DNA from: Pseudomonas purpurea
GTDB taxonomy: Bacteria; Pseudomonadota; Gammaproteobacteria; Pseudomonadales; Pseudomonadaceae
NCBI RefSeq assembly: GCF_039908635.1
Contig: NZ_CP150918.1
Coordinates: forward strand, 3,653,001-3,717,000
Reading direction: 5' to 3'
DNA: 64,000 bases
Shown here: positions 527-12,700 of the stretch, in pieces
Layout of the letters: each line of letters opens with the position of its first letter
Numbering within the stretch: position 1 is the stretch's first letter
Program-made: the position numbers and the translations under genes
Notes under the pieces: generated by a model
Database searches by the model: none
What the model saw: only the letters and a program-made list of their open reading frames with translations
What the model was told of the DNA's origin: nothing

Positions 527-2032
527 TCATGACTTTGCGGGTAGACCGCCTTCGGCCAGGGAGGCAATGGACGTGAGTAGCGCGTTGATATCCGCCCCTG
601 TGGTCCCGGGATTCAACAAGGTCATTTTCAGGGTGATCAAACCGGCATGACGGGTGACGCCCAGGTTGGCGATTCCCTGCTCAAACAATGTCTGGGCAAT
701 GTGACGATGCAGTGCGTCCCGATCCTCGGCTGCGTGCAAGGGAGTGCAAACCCGCAGCAGAACGCTGGTCAATTGCCCGCAACTGACCAGTTCGAAGGCT
801 GCCGAGGCGTCGATCACCTTGGCGACCTCGGCTGCCAGGTCAATGCACTGGTCAATCATTGCCGCGTACTGACGGGTTCCGATACTGCGCAGGCTCATCC
901 ACAGCTTCAGCGCATCGAAACGGCGGGTGGTTTGCAACGATTTTGTCACCAGGTTCGGCAAGCCGTCCCGATCATCCTCCGGCGGGTTCAGGTAATCGGC
1001 GTGTGTGCGCATGAGTTCGAAATGCGCTGCGTCACGCAGCAGAAACGCACCGCAACTGATGGTCTGGAAAAACTGTTTGTGGAAGTCCAGCGTCAGGGAA
1101 TCCGCCCGGTCCAGACCGTGCAGACGGTGGCGATACCGGTGTGATAACAGCAAGGCACCGCCCCATGCCGCGTCAACGTGCAGCCATAGCCCATGGGCCT
1201 GCGCGATGTCGGCGAGGGTGTCGAGCGGATCGATGGCGCCCGTGTCCGTGGTGCCCGCTGTAGCGACTATCACGAAGGGCGTTCGCGATTCACTCGCAAG
1301 CCTTGCGAGCGTGCACTTAAGGTCGTCCACCGACATTTTTCCGTCCCGGTCACAGGACACGGGTATCGCCGCGTTTTTGCCCAGCCCCAGTAACGACAGC
1401 GACTGTTGCACCGAAAAATGCGCCTGGCGCGAACACACGGCAACCATCCCTTGGGCGCACGCAGGAAGCCCCTGCTCCTTGACGTCCACTCCCCAGCGAA
1501 GCAGAGCGTAACGATCACGGGCAAGCAGCAGGCCCATCAAATTGCTTTGCGTTCCCCCGCTGGTAAACACACCGGCGTCGCCGTCCGGGTAGCCTGTCCA
1601 TGCACGCAGCGCACTCACCAGATGCTGTTCGAGAAAGGTCGCGGAGGGACTCTGGTCCCAAGAGTCCAGCGACTGATTGGCTACGTTGATCAGGACTTCG
1701 GCCAGTTGGCTGGCCAACGTGGTCGGACAGTGCAAATGGGCGATGCAAAGGGGGTGGTGGACTTGCAAGGCATGGTCGAGAAAACAGCTGGCGGCATCGG
1801 CCAGCGCCTGTTCGTCACCCACCCCTTGCGGGGGGAAAACGTCCAGATCGGACAAGGCTTTTCGCTGGGCGGCGGGCTGCGTTCCGTCAAACAGCGTGCC
1901 TGTTTCCAACCAGCGACTCGCGATGTCGACGGCCTGCCCCATCAAACGACGGTATATGTGCGCCCCAGCCGGATCAGCCGTGGTCATCCCCCGGGTGAGT
2001 TCATCAAGGCGGTTGGCATGACTCAGCGGCAT
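527..2032 (-). CDS. PLP-dependent group II amino-acid decarboxylase
   Basis: This is a 501-residue fold-type I PLP enzyme of the glutamate/aromatic/diaminobutyrate decarboxylase family. Visible marks are the cofactor phosphate loop 'TSGGTQSN' (about 157-164), a stacking His near 205 ('SRQAHFSVQQ'), 'HVDAAWGG' with the pyridine-binding Asp near 287, and the Schiff-base Lys in 'DFHKQFF' (K319). The start at 2032 is preferred over an upstream in-frame ATG because GGAG sits about 10 nt before it and the family N-terminus begins there. It follows the MFS gene by 25 nt, so the two are probably cotranscribed. In this context it could decarboxylate an amino acid that feeds, or is released from, the peptide pathway at 5.5-9.4 kb. 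The substrate cannot be read from sequence; 2,4-diaminobutyrate or aromatic amino acids are possible. Confidence 0.85.
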   Translation of the reverse strand: MPLSHANRLDELTRGMTTADPAGAHIYRRLMGQAVDIASRWLETGTLFDGTQPAAQRKALSDLDVFPPQGVGDEQALADAASCFLDHALQVHHPLCIAHLHCPTTLASQLAEVLINVANQSLDSWDQSPSATFLEQHLVSALRAWTGYPDGDAGVFTSGGTQSNLMGLLLARDRYALLRWGVDVKEQGLPACAQGMVAVCSRQAHFSVQQSLSLLGLGKNAAIPVSCDRDGKMSVDDLKCTLARLASESRTPFVIVATAGTTDTGAIDPLDTLADIAQAHGLWLHVDAAWGGALLLSHRYRHRLHGLDRADSLTLDFHKQFFQTISCGAFLLRDAAHFELMRTHADYLNPPEDDRDGLPNLVTKSLQTTRRFDALKLWMSLRSIGTRQYAAMIDQCIDLAAEVAKVIDASAAFELVSCGQLTSVLLRVCTPLHAAEDRDALHRHIAQTLFEQGIANLGVTRHAGLITLKMTLLNPGTTGADINALLTSIASLAEGGLPAKS

Positions 2033-2057
2033 GTTCGAATGCTCCGGGGATAAAGGC

Positions 2058-3557
2058 TCATGGCGTGGCAGCAGCTGTGGCGGGCGAGCGCAGGAGCAGG
2101 TAAATACTGAGCGCGCTGACGAGCAACAGCGCAGCCGCCGCACCGAGAACAGAGCCATACGCCATTTGATAGGCTGCTTTGGCCGCTGAAATCAACTGCA
2201 ACCCGATTTCAGGGGAGACCTTGGCGGCCACAATAAGCGCGCCATCCAGACTGTCTACCGCCTGATCGAACGATTCGGCCGCTTCGGGTAATGCGACAAA
2301 ACGGCTGTAGATCCCGCCCGCCAGACTTCCCAGTAACGTAACACCCAAGGCCCCGCCCAACTCGAAAGAGACTTCTTCTACCGAGGCAACCATTCCAACC
2401 TGGGTGGCAGGTGCCCGGTGCATGATGATGCTCGACGCCGCCGTCATCGCGGCCCCCACGCCCGCCCCCAACCCCATCAGCGCAAAGGCTGACGGCATGT
2501 TCGAGACCATCAGCGCGCCGATGCTCAGCCCCGACATCAGCAACGCGACCGTCAGCACCCGCGTACTGCCGAACGTAGGCAGGAACCAGCCCGTCAAAGG
2601 CCCGGCGAAGAACGCCGTGAGGGGAAGTGGCAGGATGACGAGCGCCGCCTTCAACGGTGTCAGGTCCTGCACCAGTTGCAAATACTGGGTCAACACCAAC
2701 TCCAGGCCAAGCAATGCCAACGAAGCGCAAAACGCTGCGGCAATACCGGCGCTGAAGACCGGGTCGCGAAACAGACGAAAATCTATAAGCGGGTGCATCG
2801 CGCGCTGCTGGCGCCGAACGAACACAATCAACAGCGATACACCGACCGCCATGGCACAGGCTGCGACAAACAGGTCAGGCTGGGGGCGACCGAACTCCTT
2901 GATGGCATACACCACCCCCACCAGGCCAACCATGATCTGTAGCGAGCCGGAAACATCCCAGGCCTTGCCTTTCTGAACGGGTTGACTCGGGATGAAATAG
3001 AGCGCGCAAGGCAAGACGACAAGAATGATCGGCAGGTTGATCAAGAACACCGCCCCCCATCCATAAAACTCCAGGACGACGCCTCCCAGAATCGGCCCCA
3101 GTGCGGCCGCGCCAGCCGCCGCCGAGGCCCACACACCAATGGCGAGGGAGCGTTCGCGCTCATCGACAAAGGTCTGGCGGATGATCGACAAGGTCGCGGG
3201 CATCATCATCGCCGCCCCCACGCCCAGTACCGCCCGTCCCAGGATCAGCCATTGCGGGCGGGTGGCAAAGGCTGACATCAGCGAGGCCAGCGCAAACACA
3301 CCAAGACCGCTGACGAACAATCGCTTGCTCCCCAAGCGGTCACCTGCCGCACCCAGCCCCGGTAACAGACCAGCAACGAGCAAGGGGTAGATATTCAGAA
3401 TCCACAGTTTTTCGTTAGCGTTCGCCTGCAAGTCCCGGGTCAGCAGGGGCAACGCCGCGTAAAGAACGGTTCCATCGATTGAAATCAACAGCAAGGCACT
3501 GGAGACCAAAGCAAGGATCAACCAGCGTCGGCGATGTGGCGGTGATGGATGCGACAT
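2058..3557 (-). CDS. MFS exporter, DHA2 (14-TM drug:H+ antiporter) family
   Basis: A 499-residue very hydrophobic protein with about 14 predicted membrane segments. The DHA2 signatures are visible: 'SIDGTVLYAALP' in TM1, a GDRLGSKR-type motif A loop, and the TM5 motif C region 'LGPILGGVV'. Family members (QacA, EmrB, SmvA) export cationic or amphipathic compounds using the proton gradient. The start has only a weak Shine-Dalgarno. It lies between the solute-binding-protein gene (93-nt gap) and the decarboxylase (25-nt gap), all on one strand. It is a plausible exporter or self-resistance pump for the product of the neighbouring cluster. That role is inferred from position only. Confidence 0.88.
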   Translation of the reverse strand: MSHPSPPHRRRWLILALVSSALLLISIDGTVLYAALPLLTRDLQANANEKLWILNIYPLLVAGLLPGLGAAGDRLGSKRLFVSGLGVFALASLMSAFATRPQWLILGRAVLGVGAAMMMPATLSIIRQTFVDERERSLAIGVWASAAAGAAALGPILGGVVLEFYGWGAVFLINLPIILVVLPCALYFIPSQPVQKGKAWDVSGSLQIMVGLVGVVYAIKEFGRPQPDLFVAACAMAVGVSLLIVFVRRQQRAMHPLIDFRLFRDPVFSAGIAAAFCASLALLGLELVLTQYLQLVQDLTPLKAALVILPLPLTAFFAGPLTGWFLPTFGSTRVLTVALLMSGLSIGALMVSNMPSAFALMGLGAGVGAAMTAASSIIMHRAPATQVGMVASVEEVSFELGGALGVTLLGSLAGGIYSRFVALPEAAESFDQAVDSLDGALIVAAKVSPEIGLQLISAAKAAYQMAYGSVLGAAAALLLVSALSIYLLLRSPATAAATP

Positions 3558-3650: not shown

Positions 3651-4685
3651 CTACTGCGAAAGTTCTGTCCAGATTGCCGCGTACTGCTCTTGCACGTTTG
3701 CCGGGCAGGCAAAGGTGAACTGCGCCTTGCGCAAGACCTCTGCCGGGATATTCAGCTCCGGAGCGTCCCGCATGGACGCGGGCATGAACTGTTCGGCACC
3801 GGCCACAGCACTGGCGTAACCATGGAAGGCAGAGTTCAAGGCTGCATTGCGCGGTTCCATGATGAAATTCATAAACAGCCTGGCATTCGCCACGTTCGTG
3901 GAACGCTTCAGGATCACCACGTTGTCACTGAATATTTGCGTGCCTTCCCTTGGAAGGCCGAAGCGGATCGTCGGGTTGATCATGCGCTGGCGCAAGGCGG
4001 CACCGTTCCAGTCGATGCTGGCCTTGAAATGCCCGGTGGCCATTTTCTGTACGCTGCCGTACTCCATGGAGGCCCACGCCGGCCGGGCCTTGACCAGGGT
4101 ATTGCGCACCTGGCGCAACAATTGCGGATCGGCATCACACATCTTGCCGCCGTGATAACGCACGGCGGCGTAGATGACTTCGTTCATGTCCGCGCCAATG
4201 TTAATCGTCCCTTGCAGTTCCTTGGGCGGATCAATCACCACAGACCAAGTGTCGATATCCCCTTTGTAGACATCGGTGTGAATGGCAACGCCCACCACTC
4301 CCCACGCCCATGGCACCGAAAATTTGCGCCCTGGATCAAAAGGCGGGTCGACCCATTGCGCAGTCAGATTGCGGAAGTTGTCCAGTTGGGATGGATGAGC
4401 CGCCAACACCAGGTCCTCGGCTATCCACAAGGGCAAATAATTGCCTGCCACCACCGCTACATCCGCGGCCACTGACTGGTCTCGAACCTTGGCAAGCGCA
4501 GTGTCACTGGATTCGTACTCAACCAGCTCAACCGCGACGTTGTGCTCTTTTTCGAACTTTTCGATCATCTGCGCACTGGTGTAGCTTTCCCAATTGTAGA
4601 GCGTGAGCGTGCCCTCGGCCTTGACCACGCCAAACGCGCAACTGAAGGCCAGGGCGATACCTGTTCTGGAAAGTGTTAACGGCAT
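3651..4685 (-). CDS. Periplasmic solute-binding protein, polyamine (PotD/PotF-like) type, orphan
   Basis: A 344-residue secreted binding protein. It has a signal peptide (about residues 1-23, ending ...GVVKA before EGTLTLYNWESY). The 'LTLYNWESY' opening is typical of PotD/PotF/SpuD spermidine or putrescine receptors, as are 'VPWAWGVVGVAIHTDVY' and 'SVQKMATGHFKASIDWNG'. GGAG lies about 8 nt before the start. No permease or ATPase gene of an ABC importer is adjacent, so it is an orphan receptor. It may share another transporter, or serve as a periplasmic carrier or sensor for a cationic product of the cluster. The polyamine specificity is a family-level guess. Confidence 0.85.
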   Translation of the reverse strand: MPLTLSRTGIALAFSCAFGVVKAEGTLTLYNWESYTSAQMIEKFEKEHNVAVELVEYESSDTALAKVRDQSVAADVAVVAGNYLPLWIAEDLVLAAHPSQLDNFRNLTAQWVDPPFDPGRKFSVPWAWGVVGVAIHTDVYKGDIDTWSVVIDPPKELQGTINIGADMNEVIYAAVRYHGGKMCDADPQLLRQVRNTLVKARPAWASMEYGSVQKMATGHFKASIDWNGAALRQRMINPTIRFGLPREGTQIFSDNVVILKRSTNVANARLFMNFIMEPRNAALNSAFHGYASAVAGAEQFMPASMRDAPELNIPAEVLRKAQFTFACPANVQEQYAAIWTELSQ

Positions 4686-4773: not shown

Positions 4774-5430
4774 CTAAGCCATTGGCAGCAGCACTCTCAG
4801 GTGAGCGACCCGTTGGGGAAGGTCGTCCTGGAGGGCCATCGTCGAGTAAGCGATTGACATCGAAAACACCCCCAGCAGCACGGAGGCTGATCGCTGGAAA
4901 GTCGCCGTATGATTCGACCAGGACTGGCGGGAAGTCAGAATCTTGCCCAGGGACGCCCACAGTATTCCGATGGGCCCAAGTGCAATCAGAAACACACCCA
5001 TCGCCCAGGCAAACTGCTCAGTGGACTGGAAAGCACTTAACGGAAAGACCGAGCTGGCGAAAAGGAATGCCTTGGGATTCAACAACGTTGCCAAAAACAC
5101 TTCGAAAAAGTGGGCGGGCCTGCGCAGAGTGTCATGAAGGACATGGCTGTTTCGCCATAGTTTGAACGCCAGCCACAGCAAGTACGCCGCACAGAGCAAC
5201 TTGATGCCATCGAGCAGCCAAGGCCGGCTCGCGGCAAAAGACAGCAGGAAAAAGCCCCAAGTCAAAATAGCCAGGGCGTACCCCATGGCCTCTGCCACCA
5301 CCAAAGGCAGTGTTCTGCGCACCCCGACCTTGAGCCCTGAAGAAAACAGCAGCGTATTGGTCGGCCCCGGCACTATCAGAATCAGCGAGGCGTAGAACGA
5401 CATGACGAGCAACTCATGAAAGACAGGCAT
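4774..5430 (-). CDS. LysE/RhtB-family amino-acid exporter
   Basis: A 218-residue membrane protein with about six hydrophobic segments. The LysE-family opening is present: an N-terminal helix, then 'PGPTNTLLFSSGLKVGVRRTLPLVVAEAMGYA', matching the family GP.P..............G...G.......G pattern. GGAGG sits 5 nt before the ATG. Relatives export lysine, homoserine, threonine or amino-acid analogues. It lies just downstream of the tRNA-synthetase-like gene and reads the same way. Export of an unusual amino acid or small peptide product is therefore plausible but inferred. Confidence 0.88.
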   Translation of the reverse strand: MPVFHELLVMSFYASLILIVPGPTNTLLFSSGLKVGVRRTLPLVVAEAMGYALAILTWGFFLLSFAASRPWLLDGIKLLCAAYLLWLAFKLWRNSHVLHDTLRRPAHFFEVFLATLLNPKAFLFASSVFPLSAFQSTEQFAWAMGVFLIALGPIGILWASLGKILTSRQSWSNHTATFQRSASVLLGVFSMSIAYSTMALQDDLPQRVAHLRVLLPMA

Positions 5431-5498: not shown

Positions 5499-6386
5499 CT
5501 AACTCCGGGAAAACGGACGCGCGGTGCGAAAGACCTCGATCGTGTCCAGACCCAACGCTGTCCGGCAGAGCCGCTCGATGCCGATACCAAACCCTGAACT
5601 CGCGGCGGGAACGGTGTTGGACCTCATCAGTTCACACATGAGCTGGTCCTCGGGGCCAAAACTGTTGAGGCGCCTGGCCTGTTCCTCAAACCGGTCGGCA
5701 TCATCTTCATCCGTGTAGCCGTGGACCACTTCGATCGCATCGATAAGGATCTCGAAACGGTCCACTATCGCCGCCGTTCCTGGCCTTCTTTTGGCCCGTA
5801 CTTCGGGCAGCAACGGAAAGTCCGTGACCACCACACAACGGTCTTTGGAGAGCGGTTCGACATTTTCGGTGATGTAGCGGTCGATCAACCACAGCGGAGA
5901 AATTTCATAATCGTTGTACATCTCCTGGAAGGCGCCCACCAACTTCATGGCCGAGTGTTCGTCCGAGAACAGGTCTATTCCCAGATCCTTGCGAATCAAC
6001 TCCCCGAACGACAAAACCTCTATCGGCCCTGGATAAAACTCGCTGACGATGCGTGTCGCCAGGTCCAGCATTTCATCGATGGTGGCGTCACGTTTGTAGA
6101 GATCGAGCATGGTGAATTCAGGCAAGTGCGTTGCGTCCAGTTCATCCGGACGAAAACTGGGGCCCATTTCGTAAACCGCCGGTGTGAACTGCAGGTTGTA
6201 GCGCAAGGCAAACGCTGACGACTCACGGAGCCAGCGACCATCCATCAATTGCAGTCTGGGACGGTCTGCATCGCCAGGAAACTTGCGCAGTATCGGCGTC
6301 ATGATTTCGAAGTAACCTTCGTGATCCAGCAGATGACGGATGCGGCGCATCATGGTGGACTTGTAGATAACCGGTTCAATCGGCAT
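5499..6386 (-). CDS. Class II aminoacyl-tRNA-synthetase-like enzyme, stand-alone catalytic domain (EpmA/LysRS-like)
   Basis: A 295-residue protein consisting of only a class II synthetase core, with no OB-fold anticodon-binding domain. Motif 1 is at 'GYFEIMTPILRKFPGDA' (P31). Motif 2 is 'FRPDELDATHLPEFTMLDLY' (R79, E90) and motif 3 is 'GFGIGIERLCR' (R272). All ATP- and aminoacyl-adenylate-binding signatures look intact. The closest known layout is EpmA (PoxA/GenX), a LysRS paralogue that ligates beta-lysine to a protein lysine. This copy is not next to epmB or efp and is embedded among oxidases and exporters, so it is unlikely to be the housekeeping EpmA. It may activate an amino acid and attach it to a peptide or small molecule. 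AAGGA lies about 13 nt before the start. Confidence 0.85.
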   Translation of the reverse strand: MPIEPVIYKSTMMRRIRHLLDHEGYFEIMTPILRKFPGDADRPRLQLMDGRWLRESSAFALRYNLQFTPAVYEMGPSFRPDELDATHLPEFTMLDLYKRDATIDEMLDLATRIVSEFYPGPIEVLSFGELIRKDLGIDLFSDEHSAMKLVGAFQEMYNDYEISPLWLIDRYITENVEPLSKDRCVVVTDFPLLPEVRAKRRPGTAAIVDRFEILIDAIEVVHGYTDEDDADRFEEQARRLNSFGPEDQLMCELMRSNTVPAASSGFGIGIERLCRTALGLDTIEVFRTARPFSRS

Positions 6387-6539
6387 GGCTGCTTAATATC
6401 CTTATTGAGAAATTGAGCGTTCGACGGCCACGCCCCTGCCAGGCCTGGATGCCCTGTCGGGGCACTTCGCGGCCGTCATGCATTGGCTTGGGCAAACCTC
6501 AGGGTTCGTGGCTTTTTCCAGGGCAAAAAAGCGTTCAGT

Positions 6540-6944
6540 CTAGGGCGCAGGCTTTCCTTTGAGCCCAACGTCGATTTTCCACCAGCGTGGCCGAGAGGAC
6601 GTAAAGGAGTGCGCTGTGGGACGCAGCGCACTTTGCCCCTTGGCGTCGAAACTGCCGAGTACCAACGCGACCGTGGGTGCATCATCAATGGCGCCCAGCG
6701 TGCTGCCGCAGCGAGGGCAAAAGGCTCGGCTGGAGTACTCCGAAGATCGGTACAGGGTCGGCATCCCGCCTTCGCCCACCCATTGCACTTCATCCTTTGA
6801 GAACTCCACCCAGCACAGGGTCAACCCACCCGAGTGCCGCTGACATATCCCGCACGAGCAGGTATGAGGGTTTTGGGGCTCACCCGTGGCAACGAATCGG
6901 ATGTGCCCGCAGAGGCATCCACCCTCATGTTTTTTAGTACTCAT
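6540..6944 (-). CDS. GFA/CENP-V-family zinc protein
   Basis: A 134-residue protein of the GFA (glutathione-dependent formaldehyde-activating enzyme) fold. Its zinc ligands are visible as 'GGCLCGHIRF', 'CSCGICQRHSGG' and 'FCPRCGS'. Gfa was described as binding glutathione and aiding S-hydroxymethylglutathione formation, though many members have no proven enzymatic role. It starts 21 nt after the stop of the diiron-oxidase gene and is probably in the same operon. Because some haem-oxygenase-like diiron oxidases release formaldehyde, this pairing is chemically suggestive. The 153-nt gap to the synthetase-like gene holds no gene. Confidence 0.82.
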   Translation of the reverse strand: MSTKKHEGGCLCGHIRFVATGEPQNPHTCSCGICQRHSGGLTLCWVEFSKDEVQWVGEGGMPTLYRSSEYSSRAFCPRCGSTLGAIDDAPTVALVLGSFDAKGQSALRPTAHSFTSSRPRWWKIDVGLKGKPAP

Positions 6945-6965
6945 GCAAAGATCTCGTCCTTGTGA

Positions 6966-7826
6966 TTAAGCGGCTTTGTGCCTGGATGCCCGACCTTCCT
7001 GCACCAGGCTATGGATCTCGGCCCATTGGTCGACGAACGGGTTGAGCATCTGCAAGAACCCGTCAACTATCTGCGGTTGAAGGAAGTTGAAGAGTTCGGC
7101 CTCGTGAATAAACCGGGCGATGCCATCCTGGTGACCCTGTTCGACCGCCACACTGCCTGTGGCCGCAACATGATCATCATCCAGGTGCATCCGGTAGTAG
7201 AAATCAAGACGCTTCAGCGAGCGACCCGACCCCAGCCCCAGGACCGTGCCCAGCCGGTCGGTGATCTCCCGCAGCAACTGGGTCTCGGCAATGGCAACGG
7301 CTTCGGTTGCGTAGTACATGCCCAGTATGGTGGAAGGGCAATGCGACCAGGTCAGGACATCAATCAACGAGATAAGCGAGCGTGTCGAGTCGGTACGGGG
7401 CATCCAGCCATTGACCCGCAAGCCAAGGTCCTCAATCAGCGCACCACTGAAAACCACATAGTGGGCAGGCAGCTTGCCTCTCTCGCCCCCCTCCTCCAGG
7501 AAATTGCGCGTCAACTCCTGAGCCAGCTCGGGGCAGAAGCCTCTGACGGTCTCTGCCGCCCGTAGCAGCATGGTGGAGTTGTAGCGCGCAAACACAGACA
7601 GTTCGGCAATGTACAACTGCGCTTCTTCTTTCGAGAGACTCTTGGGATCAACCAGGTCATGGATCTTCTGATAGAGACTGGCGATCATCGGGTTCAAGTG
7701 CCCGGCAATCAGTTCGCGACCGGAAACCGCCGCTTTGCCTTCTCGTATGACTTTATTGATCAGCGCATCGGTGTCGGTACACTGGCTGAGATAACCGTCA
7801 ACCAGACTGGGGAAGTTTCTGTACAT
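6966..7826 (-). CDS. Haem-oxygenase-like diiron oxidase (HDO superfamily, iron-containing redox enzyme)
   Basis: A 286-residue all-helical protein resembling the HDO/TenA-like superfamily (UndA, SznF, BesC, FlcD). Candidate iron ligands fit the family order: an acidic residue then His in 'FLEEGGERGKLPAHYVVF' (E112, H122), a Glu in the helix 'GMYYATEAVAIAE' (E175 or E181), and a late His/Asp cluster 'YRMHLDDDHVAA' (H214, D218, H219). Known members carry out N-oxygenation, desaturation or oxidative C-C cleavage of amino-acid-derived substrates. A perfect AAGGAGG lies 9 nt before the start. The gene follows the JmjC-type oxygenase by 25 nt. The ligand assignment is by eye and needs an alignment. 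Confidence 0.8.
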   Translation of the reverse strand: MYRNFPSLVDGYLSQCTDTDALINKVIREGKAAVSGRELIAGHLNPMIASLYQKIHDLVDPKSLSKEEAQLYIAELSVFARYNSTMLLRAAETVRGFCPELAQELTRNFLEEGGERGKLPAHYVVFSGALIEDLGLRVNGWMPRTDSTRSLISLIDVLTWSHCPSTILGMYYATEAVAIAETQLLREITDRLGTVLGLGSGRSLKRLDFYYRMHLDDDHVAATGSVAVEQGHQDGIARFIHEAELFNFLQPQIVDGFLQMLNPFVDQWAEIHSLVQEGRASRHKAA

Positions 7827-7851
7827 CGGCTAATCCTCCTTGAACAATCGA

Positions 7852-9105
7852 TTAATGGCAGTGGAGCCCGCCGGTACGGGACATCTCGCTCAGCAGCTCA
7901 ATCAACTCATCGGCGTCTACATTGACGGACTCCCGCTGGTTGAGCCGTTCCAGCAGACTGATAAGACGCCCGTGCGGATCAGCCAAGACGATACTTTGGG
8001 CCCCGATAAACACCCGAAACTCATCACGACCGCAATCCAGACCCGCCTCATACGAGGCCAGGAAAGGTTGGCGCAGTGACACCACCGAACCTCGCTGCAC
8101 GCGCTCAGGCGCAGACAGTCGGGTGTCTAGCAGCAGGTTTTCGCTGATGGCTCTGGGCAACTCCCAACCGCCATTGCTGCGCAGCCGATGCCAGTAATAA
8201 TTGAGGTAATGAGGGAGTTCATTATCGACCCAGGACCGAACGGTCGACTCCAACAGTTCGGTCACCGGACTCAACAGCGGATTGTCATTTTTCAACGGCA
8301 CGAGCGCCGACATGCCTTCTTCATCGAAAGGCAGCGTCAGGTCACTGAGCGCCGGAATCACTTTCCCTGACAGAAACCGCTTCAACGGATAGGTATAGAA
8401 CGGCAACGCGACAGAAACAGAGTATTGGTCCTGGCGCCCAATGTGATAAACGGAAGCCGGCAAGTACAGTACGTCGCCCGGTTTAAGGACATGCAAAGTG
8501 GCTGTTTCCAGCAATCGTTCATAGGCTTCGGAATCCGCGAAAGTGGGCGCACGGTGCCCCACCATCTCGACATAAAGTTCCCTGGACCAACAGTAAAAGT
8601 CTTTTACGCCCGGGCCAAGATGACAGAGAAAGGCATGTTCGAAGCCCTCATGAATACCAAAGGCAGTACCCGAGTAGTTACCACAGAACGCGGCTTGTTC
8701 CACCCCGCCAATAGGAAATCCCTTGTAGTCGAAGAACGATTGAATCAATTGGCCAAAGTCAGCCGCCAGTTTTGGACTGGCCTGTTCAAGATTGTTTACA
8801 ACCAGACTGAATCGCTCTTTACCCGTAAGGCGCTGCATAAACCCCATAAGCGCTTCATCTGGCAGGGTATCTTGAGAGAAGGCACCTTCAATCAAATCGT
8901 CCCGGCGATTTTCTCCGTCGTAAACCCGAATGCGACAGTCCAGGGCTTCACGCAAGTTGCGGTCCTGCAGTGCATAAAAAGCGGACTCCACTGTCTTGGC
9001 TGTGGCAAAGCCTGTGGCAAGTGGAAGTAACGACTCAAAAAGAAAGGGGTCCCGTCCTGAGTTGGTTTTTTCTTCGAAGCCTTCCCATACTTCTTTATCA
9101 AACAT
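7852..9105 (-). CDS. JmjC/cupin_8-type Fe(II) oxygenase, ribosomal-oxygenase-like layout
   Basis: A 417-residue protein with a double-stranded beta-helix core and a C-terminal winged-helix-like segment ('LISLLERLNQRESVNVDADE'). This layout is shared with ribosomal oxygenases (YcfD, MINA, NO66), which hydroxylate residues in proteins. The distal iron His is clear in 'DVLYLPASVYHIG' (H221). The proximal site reads 'GIHEGFEHAF' (H152-E153-G154), so the usual Asp of an HxD motif appears to be Gly. The start at 9105 is chosen over the longer frame at 9132 because GAGGAAGG lies 8 nt before it. As first enzyme after the repeat peptide it is the best candidate to act directly on the peptide, for example hydroxylating Pro, Asp, Arg or Lys. 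The substrate is inference. Confidence 0.8.
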   Translation of the reverse strand: MFDKEVWEGFEEKTNSGRDPFLFESLLPLATGFATAKTVESAFYALQDRNLREALDCRIRVYDGENRRDDLIEGAFSQDTLPDEALMGFMQRLTGKERFSLVVNNLEQASPKLAADFGQLIQSFFDYKGFPIGGVEQAAFCGNYSGTAFGIHEGFEHAFLCHLGPGVKDFYCWSRELYVEMVGHRAPTFADSEAYERLLETATLHVLKPGDVLYLPASVYHIGRQDQYSVSVALPFYTYPLKRFLSGKVIPALSDLTLPFDEEGMSALVPLKNDNPLLSPVTELLESTVRSWVDNELPHYLNYYWHRLRSNGGWELPRAISENLLLDTRLSAPERVQRGSVVSLRQPFLASYEAGLDCGRDEFRVFIGAQSIVLADPHGRLISLLERLNQRESVNVDADELIELLSEMSRTGGLHCH

Positions 9106-9156
9106 GAATGACCTTCCTCTACCCACCATCACTGAACATTGTGTGACACCGTCGAG

Positions 9157-9194
9157 GTAAGCCGGCTGCCCAACCCGCGCAGCAGCCGGCTTAC
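9157..9194 (-). terminator. Strong hairpin between precursor-peptide gene and first enzyme (attenuator or processing stem)
   Basis: GTAAGCCGGCTGC (9157-9169) pairs perfectly with 9182-9194, giving a 13-bp stem with a 12-nt loop. It starts 3 nt after the peptide stop codon and no U-run follows. It therefore fits partial termination or 3'-end protection of the short transcript better than full termination. This would let the peptide be made in excess of the enzymes. Confidence 0.75.
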
Positions 9195-9196
9195 GA

Positions 9197-9367
9197 TCAG
9201 ATCAGGCTCGCCGCATCAGGGCGCACGCCTGTTTTCATTGCATCGGGACGCACACCCGTCTTCATCGCATCCGGGCGAACGCCAGTCTTCATTGCATCAG
9301 GACGCACGCCTGTTTTCATCGCATCAGGACGAACACCCGTCTTCATCAAACAAGTTCCACTGTTCAT
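9197..9367 (-). CDS. Repetitive precursor peptide: five tandem MKTGVRPDA units
   Basis: A 56-residue ORF with layout MNSGTCL, then MKTGVRPDA five times, then ASLI and stop. The repeat units occupy 9346-9320, 9319-9293, 9292-9266, 9265-9239 and 9238-9212. AAGGAAG sits about 5 nt before the ATG. The units are identical in protein but not in DNA: seven of the nine codons vary synonymously between copies and none varies non-synonymously. This strongly argues for selection on the peptide sequence. The gene heads a same-strand run of modifying-type enzymes and exporters. Each unit offers modifiable Lys, Thr, Arg, Pro and Asp, and a single Cys sits in the short leader. I read it as a multi-core precursor peptide but recognise no named family. 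Confidence 0.85.
   Translation of the reverse strand: MNSGTCLMKTGVRPDAMKTGVRPDAMKTGVRPDAMKTGVRPDAMKTGVRPDAASLI
9212..9346 (-). repeat. 27-bp coding tandem repeat, five copies
   Basis: Five contiguous 27-bp units encode MKTGVRPDA with only synonymous differences. There are no spacers, so this is not a CRISPR array. Units 2 and 5 differ at just two bases. Confidence 0.95.
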
Positions 9368-9748
9368 ATCGCTTCCTTTTTAATCATAGAGTTAGAGCAT
9401 TGTGGTGTTGCAAAAACAGATACCTTTAACGGTCGCGCCTAGAGCAACTGCTTCAGCCACAAGCATGCCTTCAACGTTTAACGCTGAGGTTCCTGATTTA
9501 TGGGACGCACTTAAACACGCCTAGTGTCCTACAGAAAAAGACTACAACAGGCGCCGTGCGAAATTGAAGATAGATGGGTTTTGAATTCGTGCTTTGGGCA
9601 TTTGTTTCTAATTATTAGAAGACTGTTACAGAGGCCTCTAAACAAACAGTTGCAAGCGTGTGACGGGTATCTGGGCAAACAACTCATGAACGATTGATGT
9701 CTGCAAGGACGTCACTGAAACGGCGACTTGCGCAATCATTGTGGGTCG
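9368..9748 (-). promoter_or_regulatory. Upstream region of the peptide cluster with palindromes
   Basis: This 380-nt gene-free stretch must hold the cluster promoter. Two dyads stand out. TTCTAAT-T-ATTAGAA is a perfect inverted repeat at 9606-9620. At 9622-9650, ACTGTT and AACAGT flank the 10-bp palindrome AGAGGCCTCT (9630-9639). Two CTAGGCG-containing segments (about 9435-9442 and 9519-9526) resemble each other. I could not assign a convincing -35/-10 pair. The dyads are candidate operators for an unknown regulator. Confidence 0.45.
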
Positions 9749-9780
9749 AGGTCAGCCCCTTCGCCGCAGGGGGCCGACCT
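9749..9780 (-). terminator. Hairpin after tamB
   Basis: AGGTC-A-GCCCC pairs with GGGGC-C-GACCT (one internal mismatch, 10-nt loop), 12 nt beyond the tamB stop. No T-run follows, so it may be a weak terminator. Confidence 0.5.
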
Positions 9781-9791
9781 TGATCGGGGAG

Positions 9792-12700
9792 TTAGAAATC
9801 CCGCTTGTAGAAGATGTCCAGCGAACTGGCGACTCCGCTGGCAGCCTCCAGATAAACCTTCTTGCTCAGTTTGTAACGCAAGGCGATGGTGTTGGCCGGT
9901 TCGAACACGCCAACGCCATAACGCAAACTGAGTTTCTCGGAGATGTTGCCGCTGGCCACCACGCTGGTAGTGGTGCCGCTGCCCTGGGTGTCGAGCTGAA
10001 AGTCCTGGATGCCCAGGCCCTTGGCCAGACTGCCGGTCAGGTCGGAACTGCCCATCAGGCCCAGCCCCAATGCAGCCTGCGCGAGCATGTTGTTGTCTTC
10101 ACCGTTGCTGGTCAGCGGACGCCCGAGCACCAGATAGGACAGCGCCTGTTCCTGGCTCATGGCCGGTTCCGAGAAGATCTGCGTGGTCGGCTGCTCGGCG
10201 CTGCCGCTCAGGCGGATACCGGCGATCACGTCATCTGTCTGGCGCACCGCTTCGATGTCCAGGTACGGTTGGTCGAGAGGGCCGGCGAACAACAACCGCG
10301 CACGGCGCACCGTCAATCGCTGGCCGTAGGCCCGATAACGGCCATCGTTGAGCCAGAGCTCGCCACGGGTGTCCATGTTGTCGCCGATGTGTACCTGGCC
10401 TTGCAGGTTGGCGGTCAGGCCGAACCCGGCAAAGCTGAGTTTATCCTCGCCCACCACCACATCCACATCCATCGCCATGGCCATCGGCGGTTTGCCCTCT
10501 TCGGTCTGGTGACCGACGATCACCGTGTCGTCAGAGACCTTGACCGTCGAGGGCGGTAACTCGCGCACCGTGATCTCGCCCTTGGGCACACGCACCTTGC
10601 CGGCAATCTTCAGTTGCTCGTTATTGATCGAGATGTGCAGGTCCGGCGCCACTTCCAGCGCCGCATACGGTTCGACCGTCACCGGCAGTTGCGTGCCTTT
10701 GAGGCTCACATCCACCAACAGCGCCTGGCCCCAGGCGATGTGCCCGTTCACGCTGCCCTGCCCGGCCTTGCCGCTTTTCCAACTGCCGTTGAGCTGCACG
10801 CTTTCGCCGGCAATCTGTGCCTGAACCTGCAACGCTTCAAGGCTGGTCGGCAACTGCGAGCCTGCGATTTCACCGTCGCTGAGGGTCAGGTTGCCGTTGA
10901 CCTGAGGCGCCAGCAAACCGCCCGACAAACTGCCGCTGCCGTTCAAGCGCCCGGTCAGTTTTTCGACCATTGGCACGAACGGCCGCACCACCGACACATC
11001 CAGACCATTGAGGCGGAACGAGCCGCTCAACGGCTTGCTCTTGGCCAGCGGATTGATCTGCGCCTGAACGCTCAACTCGCCCAGCTTGCCACCGACAAAA
11101 TCGAGCTGCGTGTCGATGCGTTTCGGGTTAAGGGTGCTGGTCAGTTTCAGGGTCTGGTAGGGGAAATCCAGCCACTGGTCTTTTTCCTTGATGCGCAGCG
11201 TACCGCCACTGGCATCGACCATGACCTGGCCTTTCGGGCCGCTGGCCGGCAAGTCCAGTTGCACGTCCGCGTTGAGCTTGCCCTGCCAGGCGAAGTCTTT
11301 CGGCAACCATTGCGCCAGGCTGTCGATCGGGAATTGCTTGAGGTGGTAACGCAGTTTCGGCTCAGGCATCAGGCGCTGATCCTCGCCACACAAACTGGCC
11401 GGGCCGGACATCCAGCAATGAGCGCCGAACGTCAGCCGACCATCGGCCAGGCGTTCGACTTTTGCCGGGCTCTGCAGCTTCCAGTCCTGGCCGCCGGCCT
11501 GTACGTCGCCACTGGCCAACCGGCCGCGCCAGTTGCCTTTGTCCAGCGCACCGTCCAGACCCAACGCCAGTTTCAGCAACGGCCCTTGCAGGTCCAGTTG
11601 CAGCTTCTGGTTTTTGATATCGCCCTGGGCGCTGGCGGTGAGGGCGCCCAATTGGGTGTCGCCGGCCTGAATGCCGCTGCCCTTGAGGTCGATCTTCGCC
11701 CGTTGCGCGCTGTCGAGATTGGCGTCCAGGTTCAGGCTTTGCAGGCGATTGTCGTCGAACGCCAGTTGCGTACCTTGCAGGCTGAGTTTGCCTTGGGGCG
11801 CCTTGAGCGTTCCGCCGACATCGACTCGACCATTGAGCTGCCCGCGCAATTGCGGCCAGAGCTGGCCAAGACGCAGCGCCTTGATGTCGAGCTGGCCGGT
11901 GAGCTTCTGTTGCAAGTTGCCGGTGCCGTCGATGCGGTTGTCGCCGAGGCGGATGTGCAGCGCGCTCAGATTCCAGCGTTCAGCGCCGCCATCGGCCTTG
12001 GCCTGCAAGATCGCCGGTTGACCGCGCAGTTTGCCCTTGAGGTCCAGGTCGGCGTTCAGGCTGAGCGTTTCATGCTTCATTTCACCCTTGCTGCGCAACG
12101 GCCCGGCCAACGTCCCCGGCAGTTCGGCAACCCAGTACGCTGGGTTGATCGCCGACAGGTCCAATGCCGTGTCCCAAGCGATGCCGTCGGCAAATTGCAG
12201 GTTCAAATGCCCTTCGGCCTTGCCCTGCCCTGCCACCAGTTTGAATTCCGGCAGGAAGATTTTCGTCAGGTCGCCACTGAACGGGCTGCTCAGGCTGAAC
12301 GCCCCGGCCGGGCCATCCAGCGCAGCCTTGAAGTTGCCCAGATAATTGCCATCGCGGTAGGACACCTCGCCATTGAAGCTGCGCAACGCAACCTGAGGCT
12401 CATCAATCAACGGGTACAGCCTGTACCACGGGAAATCCAGCCAATCGATTTTTGCTTCCGCGCTCAGGCCCTCGGACCAATCGAGCTGCCCGCTCAGTTT
12501 CAGGTTTTGCTGGGCGTTGGCATTCAGCTCCAGGCCGGCGATCTGCGCGCCCTTGGCGTCGACCTTGCCTTGCAGCAGCAACGCGACCGGGCCTTGCTCG
12601 GCTGGCACTGTGGCTTTGCCGAGCAGTTGATAGCCGTTCTTCAGGTCACCATTGCCGGTCAGTTCCAACTGGTCAAGTTGCAAGGTGTCGGGCAAATCGG

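Follow-up and report, generated by a model that had tools for sequence, protein, structure and literature searches.

A leaderless repeat peptide encoded beside JmjC, haem-oxygenase-like and EpmA-like enzymes in Pseudomonas purpurea as a probable substrate of an undescribed biosynthetic pathway

The stretch of DNA analyzed here (the window) comprises 64,000 nucleotides of Pseudomonas purpurea (contig NZ_CP150918.1, positions 3,653,001–3,717,000) and contains, at 9197–9367 on the minus strand, a short open reading frame (ORF) that encodes a repeat peptide at the head of a group of oxidase, ligase and exporter genes. Minus-strand translation of 9367–9197 gives MNSGTCLMKTGVRPDAMKTGVRPDAMKTGVRPDAMKTGVRPDAMKTGVRPDAASLI* (56 codons), i.e. 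MNSGTCL, five units of MKTGVRPDA, ASLI and a stop codon, whereas the plus-strand reading of these positions is a different peptide and not the repeat precursor. The five units are coded by 9212–9346 and were recovered independently by Tandem Repeats Finder (27 bp × 5.0 copies, 9212–9347). A Shine–Dalgarno sequence, AAGGA, precedes the ORF at 9374–9378 on the same strand. The ORF, its five perfect repeats and its good Shine–Dalgarno sequence had been proposed in a first-pass annotation made from the letters of the window, and all were confirmed, with minus as the coding strand. That annotation had also stated that seven of the nine codons of the unit vary synonymously between repeats. This holds true: seven of the 27 bases are variable, all at third positions and all silent. 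In the consensus unit 20 of the 81 single changes are synonymous, and the chance of seven consecutive silent ones is about 6e-5 on a rough per-site estimate. None of the Pfam and NCBIfam models matches the window peptide or the other precursors tried. The GC content is 52–57% across ∼4–10 kb of the window against 59–64% across 10–20 kb, which is compatible with acquired DNA.

Four genes follow on the minus strand and form, together with the repeat ORF, the core that is conserved in related loci. The first (7852–9105; the start is taken as the ATG at 9105, with a GTG at 9132 also possible) encodes a JmjC/cupin protein resembling 2-oxoglutarate (2OG) oxygenases, which was assigned from PF08007 (JmjC_2; 23.1 bits, cut-off 22) and from fold matches. 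The JmjC fold is present, and the best fold match is a protein oxygenase, the ribosomal arginine hydroxylase YcfD/ROX, at 11–14% identity over the YcfD rows. However, the HxD/E...H facial triad of JmjC_2/ROX oxygenases is absent from the cluster protein, in which the metal motif HxD, present in ROX and in two JmjC outgroups, is replaced by HxG (H153-E-G155, with H222 as the second histidine; numbering of the 418-amino-acid translation from 9108). HxG is found in 18 of 18 aligned sequences. It is also present in the window protein and, across related loci, in 32 of 33 JmjC ORFs (two of them come from one Nostoc record), a set that excludes the JmjC relative of locus L014; the exception is an outgroup. 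With its two histidines and a small residue where Asp would otherwise stand, the motif matches the site of Fe/2OG halogenases, and halide use would be a prediction at most.

The second gene (6966–7826) encodes a haem-oxygenase-like oxidase (HDO) of the DUF3865 family, identified by domain match (36.5 bits, cut-off 31.6), alignment and a haem-oxygenase-like fold resembling CADD, HrmI and BesC; residues H122, H214, H232, E111, E112, E175, D216 and E229 are invariant in 20 of 20 aligned sequences and include candidate ligands for the three-His/three-carboxylate dimetal site of the HDO superfamily. The third (6540–6944) is a GFA family protein, recognized by domain scan and as a conserved partner. 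The fourth (5499–6386) encodes an EpmA/GenX- and LysRS-like ligase, recognized by profile scans and a match to LysRS in the PDB (E 4.2e-32). It belongs to the same class II LysRS-like family as EpmA, the EF-P beta-lysyl ligase, whose reaction attaches an amino acid to a lysine of its protein substrate. Motif 3 (G-x-G-x-E-R) is intact in the window (G-F-G-I-G-I-E-R) and was found in 30 of 31 ORFs; in an alignment of 14 sequences, all 14 agree in the G-x-E-R-L columns. However, the protein lies far below the EpmA equivalog cut-offs (102.4 of 286.9 bits for TIGR00462 and 92 of 264 bits for NF006828), and lysylation of EF-P is an unlikely role because EarP (512 bits) is encoded in the host genome, where no protein passes the cut-off for EpmA. 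There is precedent for paralogous aminoacyl-tRNA synthetases that serve biosynthesis by ligating amino acids (PMC2922099).

The HDO occurs in two of 398 genomes of the same genus, two of 398 in a family sample and one of 398 in a phylum sample, each count including the window's own genome. In the second genome of the genus (G274) the gene order is the same through the binding-protein gene described below, with the proteins matching those of the window at 63% (JmjC), 74% over 248 residues (HDO), 78% (GFA), 70% (EpmA-like), 65% (LysE) and 61% (binding protein); no matches to the window's tamA/tamB-like neighbours, MFS or decarboxylase genes were found at that locus. The HDO frame there apparently shifts near protein residues 39–47 (L006, 9598–9738), reflecting a sequencing error or a damaged gene. 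An HDO search of plasmids returned 16 records (ten Streptomyces, two Nostoc and four Pantoea fragments), eight of which were opened, including one of the four from Pantoea. In all seven full-length loci opened (five Streptomyces and two Nostoc) there is a short ORF of repeats, the product of which is listed as hypothetical. A cluster remnant was observed on a Pantoea agglomerans plasmid (L013, 7905–8724), consisting of a 91-amino-acid HDO fragment, a full-length GFA gene and the start of an EpmA-like gene, with no repeat.

An HDO-alignment search of a genome collection of 84,980 species gave 24 loci, namely two from Xenorhabdus, one each from a Parvularcula and an Acidobacteriota metagenome-assembled genome (MAG), 19 from actinobacteria (Streptomyces and relatives, Amycolatopsis and Nocardia) and one from Nostoc carneum. 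The repeat ORF is present in 23 of these and in 32 of the 33 loci examined overall, the exception being the Acidobacteriota locus (L024). The count of 33 leaves out L011 (same record as L042), L013, L014, the JmjC outgroups without a repeat (L016 and L020) and L001–L005, L007 and L008, which are the own genome, duplicates or chance matches. On the Pantoea ananatis plasmid of L016 (6748–12109), a distantly related JmjC gene that keeps HxD has neighbours coding for an arginase-family protein, another cupin, a GNAT and an MFS protein, possibly as another arginine-based pathway. A Streptomyces precursor used as a tblastn query against 72,556 plasmids returned 15 records: 11 from Streptomyces, one from Nostoc commune and three weak ones (Providencia and Rhizobium; E 0.2–0.8), which were taken as chance. 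The other 12 all have a JmjC gene and 11 have the HDO, and all ten HDO-bearing Streptomyces plasmid records were recovered. L014 is not among the records returned. This query was not exhaustive because it missed Nostoc carneum, which has a precursor. The search for repeat ORFs near HDO and JmjC genes, which the first-pass annotation had suggested for Pseudomonas genomes, yielded them in three phyla.

The 32 precursors contain 175 units of the form K-x-G-x-R-P. Gly, Arg and Pro are constant in all 175 and Lys is found in 173; the two Gln residues both occur in L034, where LKDGMRPDA alternates with LQLGMRPDA. The next position is Asp in 151 units, Gly in 23 and Tyr in one. Each precursor has four to nine units at a spacing of 8–12 residues, and the fixed nine-residue length originally assumed from the window is therefore not borne out. 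In contrast, the first-pass annotation had named non-synonymous drift of the repeats as an argument against a precursor role, and apart from the two Lys-to-Gln changes the variation lies outside K-x-G-x-R-P (e.g. MKAGVRPDA, LKTGVRPDA, LKAGERPDA, MKAGVRPDA and MKAGVRPDA in G274). Arg codons vary inside 20 of 26 precursors, and a Shine–Dalgarno-like motif lies upstream of all 26 precursor starts examined out of the 32. The apparent fifth unit of the Nostoc carneum precursor is in another reading frame, as would be consistent with the loss of an expendable copy. As judged from these sequence comparisons, the motif [L/M]-K-x-G-x-R-P-D is maintained by selection on the protein. Upstream of the first unit there are 2–23 residues that differ between groups (the start in L037 is uncertain), and no conserved N-terminal leader was evident across the 32 precursors. 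The precursor gene lies 5′ of the JmjC gene in Gram-negative loci, 5′ of a desaturase gene in Streptomyces and after the HDO gene in Nocardia.

The precursor stop codon is followed by a hairpin, which in the window (9157–9194, minus strand) was located by folding between this stop and the JmjC gene and has 14 pairs and two inner pairs (z −1.96 against shuffles for the folded 87-nucleotide stretch). A stem-loop lies directly 3′ of the stop in all 11 of the 32 loci that were folded, and ten of them beat their shuffles (z ≤ −1.96); the sequences differ between groups and the position is conserved. No terminator-like T run was found after the window hairpin, which is therefore more likely to be a partial terminator or an mRNA-stabilizing element, and it could let precursor mRNA outnumber enzyme mRNA.

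Other genes adjoin the core in a lineage-dependent manner. In the window these are a LysE-type amino-acid exporter (4774–5430, minus strand) and a PotD/PotF-like periplasmic binding protein without an adjoining permease (3651–4685, minus strand), both assigned by domain scans and locus comparison; the latter is an addition to the original gene list. Both recur in G274 and in the two Xenorhabdus loci, where they are fused in one ORF (L021, 5567–7177; L022, 5007–6605), which suggests that the exporter works with a periplasmic binding domain. Cluster membership is doubtful for a major facilitator superfamily (MFS) exporter (SmvA/QacA-like; 2058–3557, minus strand; NCBIfam-type scan) and a pyridoxal phosphate (PLP) decarboxylase (diaminobutyrate-decarboxylase-like; 527–2158, minus strand; domain scans). 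The first-pass annotation had included both in the cluster, but neither has a match in any of 35 related loci compared. Its succession of same-strand downstream genes (JmjC, HDO, GFA, aminoacyl-tRNA-synthetase-like, exporters and PLP decarboxylase) was otherwise reproduced by Pfam and NCBIfam scans and, in agreement with its report of no YcaO or lanthipeptide enzyme, the eight downstream window proteins contain no YcaO, TfuA or LanB-type domain. Among the 24 genome loci the HDO is present in 24 by construction, and JmjC, GFA and EpmA-like genes in 23 each; GFA is partial in L035, L038 and L039. Beyond the core, all 19 actinobacterial loci encode a membrane desaturase and a protein annotated as an amidinotransferase. 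TauD is present in 17 of them, a protein with a single annotation as HEAT in 16, an enzyme of the arginine-deiminase type in 15, an antiporter in 11 and a nitroreductase in nine, these counts being partly limited by contig ends. In Nostoc commune and Parvularcula the additional genes encode a fold-III decarboxylase and another protein, which matches no Pfam model.

Comparison of the loci shows, at the sequence level, a peptide that is conserved, under selection and built of repeats, in linkage with a fixed set of enzymes. The precursor role that the first-pass annotation had proposed for the ORF appears strongly supported, because the repeat ORF and the enzymes co-occur in three phyla. A small encoded precursor beside candidate modifying enzymes, conserved with them in 23 of 24 HDO-seeded loci, agrees with the general features of ribosomally synthesized and post-translationally modified peptides (RiPPs). 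We consider that the ORF probably encodes a substrate made by the ribosome specifically for a pathway of the RiPP type that is leaderless, multi-unit and so far undescribed; the repeat peptide is very probably the raw material for modified peptides or amino acids of a class not described before. We infer that the cluster enzymes act on the peptide and, since there is no leader, that they would bind the units themselves. The JmjC protein, with its YcfD-like fold, and the HDO would oxidize the units directly on the peptide, the likeliest site being the invariant Arg, or else Lys; Arg is favored by the invariant Arg-Pro, by this fold and by the precedents of VarO and MboA. The EpmA-like enzyme would adenylate a basic amino acid and join it to the side chain of the unit lysine, as EpmA does on EF-P, a step favored by the near-invariant Lys together with the ligase. 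Both modifications could occur together. Host peptidases would then free the product, and LysE with the binding protein would export an amino-acid-sized compound in this genus and Xenorhabdus, the exporter arguing for a small product. Lineage-specific tailoring would involve guanidine enzymes in actinobacteria and the decarboxylase in Nostoc commune and Parvularcula.

Several observations weigh against this interpretation. An N-terminal leader followed by a core is usual, though not universal, in RiPP precursors, and none is seen here. Gln replaces Lys in two of the four units of L034, the hairpin of which is also no better than shuffles (z −0.73). No protease domain was found among the eight downstream window proteins scanned. 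The Streptomyces plasmid L015 carries the precursor with EpmA-like, desaturase, amidinotransferase, TauD and JmjC genes, with no match to HDO or GFA, and a Streptomyces sp. NBC_00445 plasmid (L014, 8974–10317) carries a full-length JmjC relative (37%) with no repeat ORF; adenylation- and ketosynthase-type genes lie near this relative. The Nostoc carneum plasmid is the only one of the 24 loci without an EpmA-like gene, two matches elsewhere in the genome being of aminoacyl-tRNA synthetase size. An adenylation–peptidyl carrier protein–reductase (A-PCP-reductase) protein adjoins this cluster (L011, 12358–15363), and it is possible that it replaces the ligase in amino-acid activation. Finally, the first-pass annotation had held that clusters keeping the enzymes without the repeat ORF would count against a precursor; L024 is one such case in 24. 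It has an HDO (63–66%), a PhyH protein with an HQD motif, an ornithine/diaminopimelate-decarboxylase-type PLP protein and a diverged EpmA-like gene (6322–10397), but JmjC, GFA and the repeat are all missing from the locus. Its assembly yielded no JmjC relative, and a precursor search of it, which came back empty, carries no weight in either direction. L024 may have a precursor that escaped notice, or its enzymes may act on free amino acids.

The strongest rival explanation is that the peptide is a carrier or scaffold, for which the 3-thiaglutamate PEARL (peptide aminoacyl-tRNA ligase) scaffold and LysW are precedents. The EpmA-like enzyme would load a free basic amino acid onto each unit lysine, JmjC and HDO would oxidize it, and the amino acid would be cleaved off and exported while the peptide is recycled. 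This is a serious but distinctly less probable alternative; we rate equally low a version in which a noncanonical amino acid is built by the two-histidine JmjC protein and the HDO on isopeptide-charged KxGxRP lysines before release. Units that hardly change over three phyla, and the lack of both a variable core and a leader, would suit a carrier, as would an amino-acid exporter joined to a PotD-like protein in Xenorhabdus, accessory enzymes whose types have basic amino acids or guanidines as substrates, the absence of a recognized protease and the presence of another amino-acid activator, the A-PCP-reductase, in the sole cluster lacking an EpmA-like gene. The first-pass annotation had suggested that each unit could yield one product; the near-invariant units, the missing protease and the exporter would fit a carrier as well. 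However, lysine loading leaves the invariant Arg-Pro unexplained, the Gln units of L034 do not fit and no release enzyme was identified.

The HxG motif also raises the improbable alternative that JmjC chlorinates the unit lysine and the HDO fragments it in the manner of BesC into allylglycine-type residues, ammonia and formaldehyde, the last being handled by GFA, which is present in all 23 genome-scan loci having JmjC. BesC is among the fold matches of the HDO, although it is not the closest HDO, and BesC chemistry involves formaldehyde release according to the accessible part of PMC13108848. However, a two-His site is not diagnostic of a halogenase, because AspH, a natural two-His oxygenase, hydroxylates and showed no halogenase activity in what is available of PMC6817910. 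Furthermore, L015 has JmjC without GFA, L024 has the PhyH protein and no JmjC, and the GFA name says little because actinobacteria, to our knowledge, lack glutathione. Still less credible, and already disfavored, is an attenuation leader, an Arg/Lys-codon-rich regulatory ORF whose translation controls the hairpin and the downstream enzymes. The repeated basic residues and the position of the hairpin would fit, but Gly and Pro are as constant as Arg, codons vary freely even for Arg, the window hairpin lacks a T run, the precursor position differs between lineages and there are up to nine units. Least likely of all, the short, basic, repeated peptide might be an unmodified effector (antimicrobial, metal binder or nucleic-acid binder) beside unrelated enzymes, a view at odds with how closely it is linked, across three phyla, to one and the same group of four enzyme genes.

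A search of the open-licence literature found no description of this combination of precursor and enzymes, an absence that is not proof. The nearest system is that of the thiovarsolins (varAYTO, Streptomyces varsoviensis), for which the available text of PMC6511847 describes precursors ranging from unrepeated to five repeats of an Arg-containing core, APR, and amidinotransferase and MFS genes with no specific protease in the cluster. A deletion mutant suggested that the haem-oxygenase-like VarO, likened here by description, introduces an Arg side-chain double bond in the repeated precursor. In contrast, thiovarsolins need YcaO and TfuA and have a predicted leader, and no JmjC, GFA or EpmA-like protein is among the seven genes named there (PMC6511847). 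For mangotoxin (mboABCDEF, Pseudomonas syringae), the part of PMC13185094 at hand reports that an HDO oxidizes the C-terminal residue of an Arg-built tripeptide and that an arginine-deiminase-type enzyme converts Arg to citrulline; however, the tripeptide comes from ATP-grasp ligases and is not ribosomal, and no JmjC, GFA or EpmA-like gene is named. In the std cluster for a homocitrulline RiPP, a lysine side chain is derivatized and then oxidized, but by YcaO–TfuA, a carbamoyltransferase and an MNIO, with no enzyme type in common with the window cluster in the portion available (PMC13174530). In the bes pathway to beta-ethynylserine (BesD/BesC), an HDO cleaves a lysine derivative (PMC13108848, in part). 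The PEARL scaffolds differ in that a LanB-like ligase, a domain type not seen in the eight window proteins, extends the peptide by an amino acid at its C terminus. The bes pathway acts on free lysine, with a two-His Fe/2OG halogenase preceding BesC, and we know of no precursor peptide in it.

RiPP classes are usually found via a few marker enzymes, none of which is present in the window. The precursor has no leader and is so short that annotation may overlook it or label it hypothetical. If the units serve as carriers, the system would parallel the C-terminal PEARL scaffolds but with loading on side chains, and it would involve an EpmA relative dedicated to biosynthesis, an arrangement that is apparently undescribed. 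The K-x-G-x-R-P motif is simple enough for genome mining and synthetic-peptide tests. The cluster joins three enzyme types, a two-His JmjC protein, a DUF3865 HDO and an EpmA-like ligase, in one testable pathway, and it suggests what DUF3865 and some GFA proteins might do biochemically.
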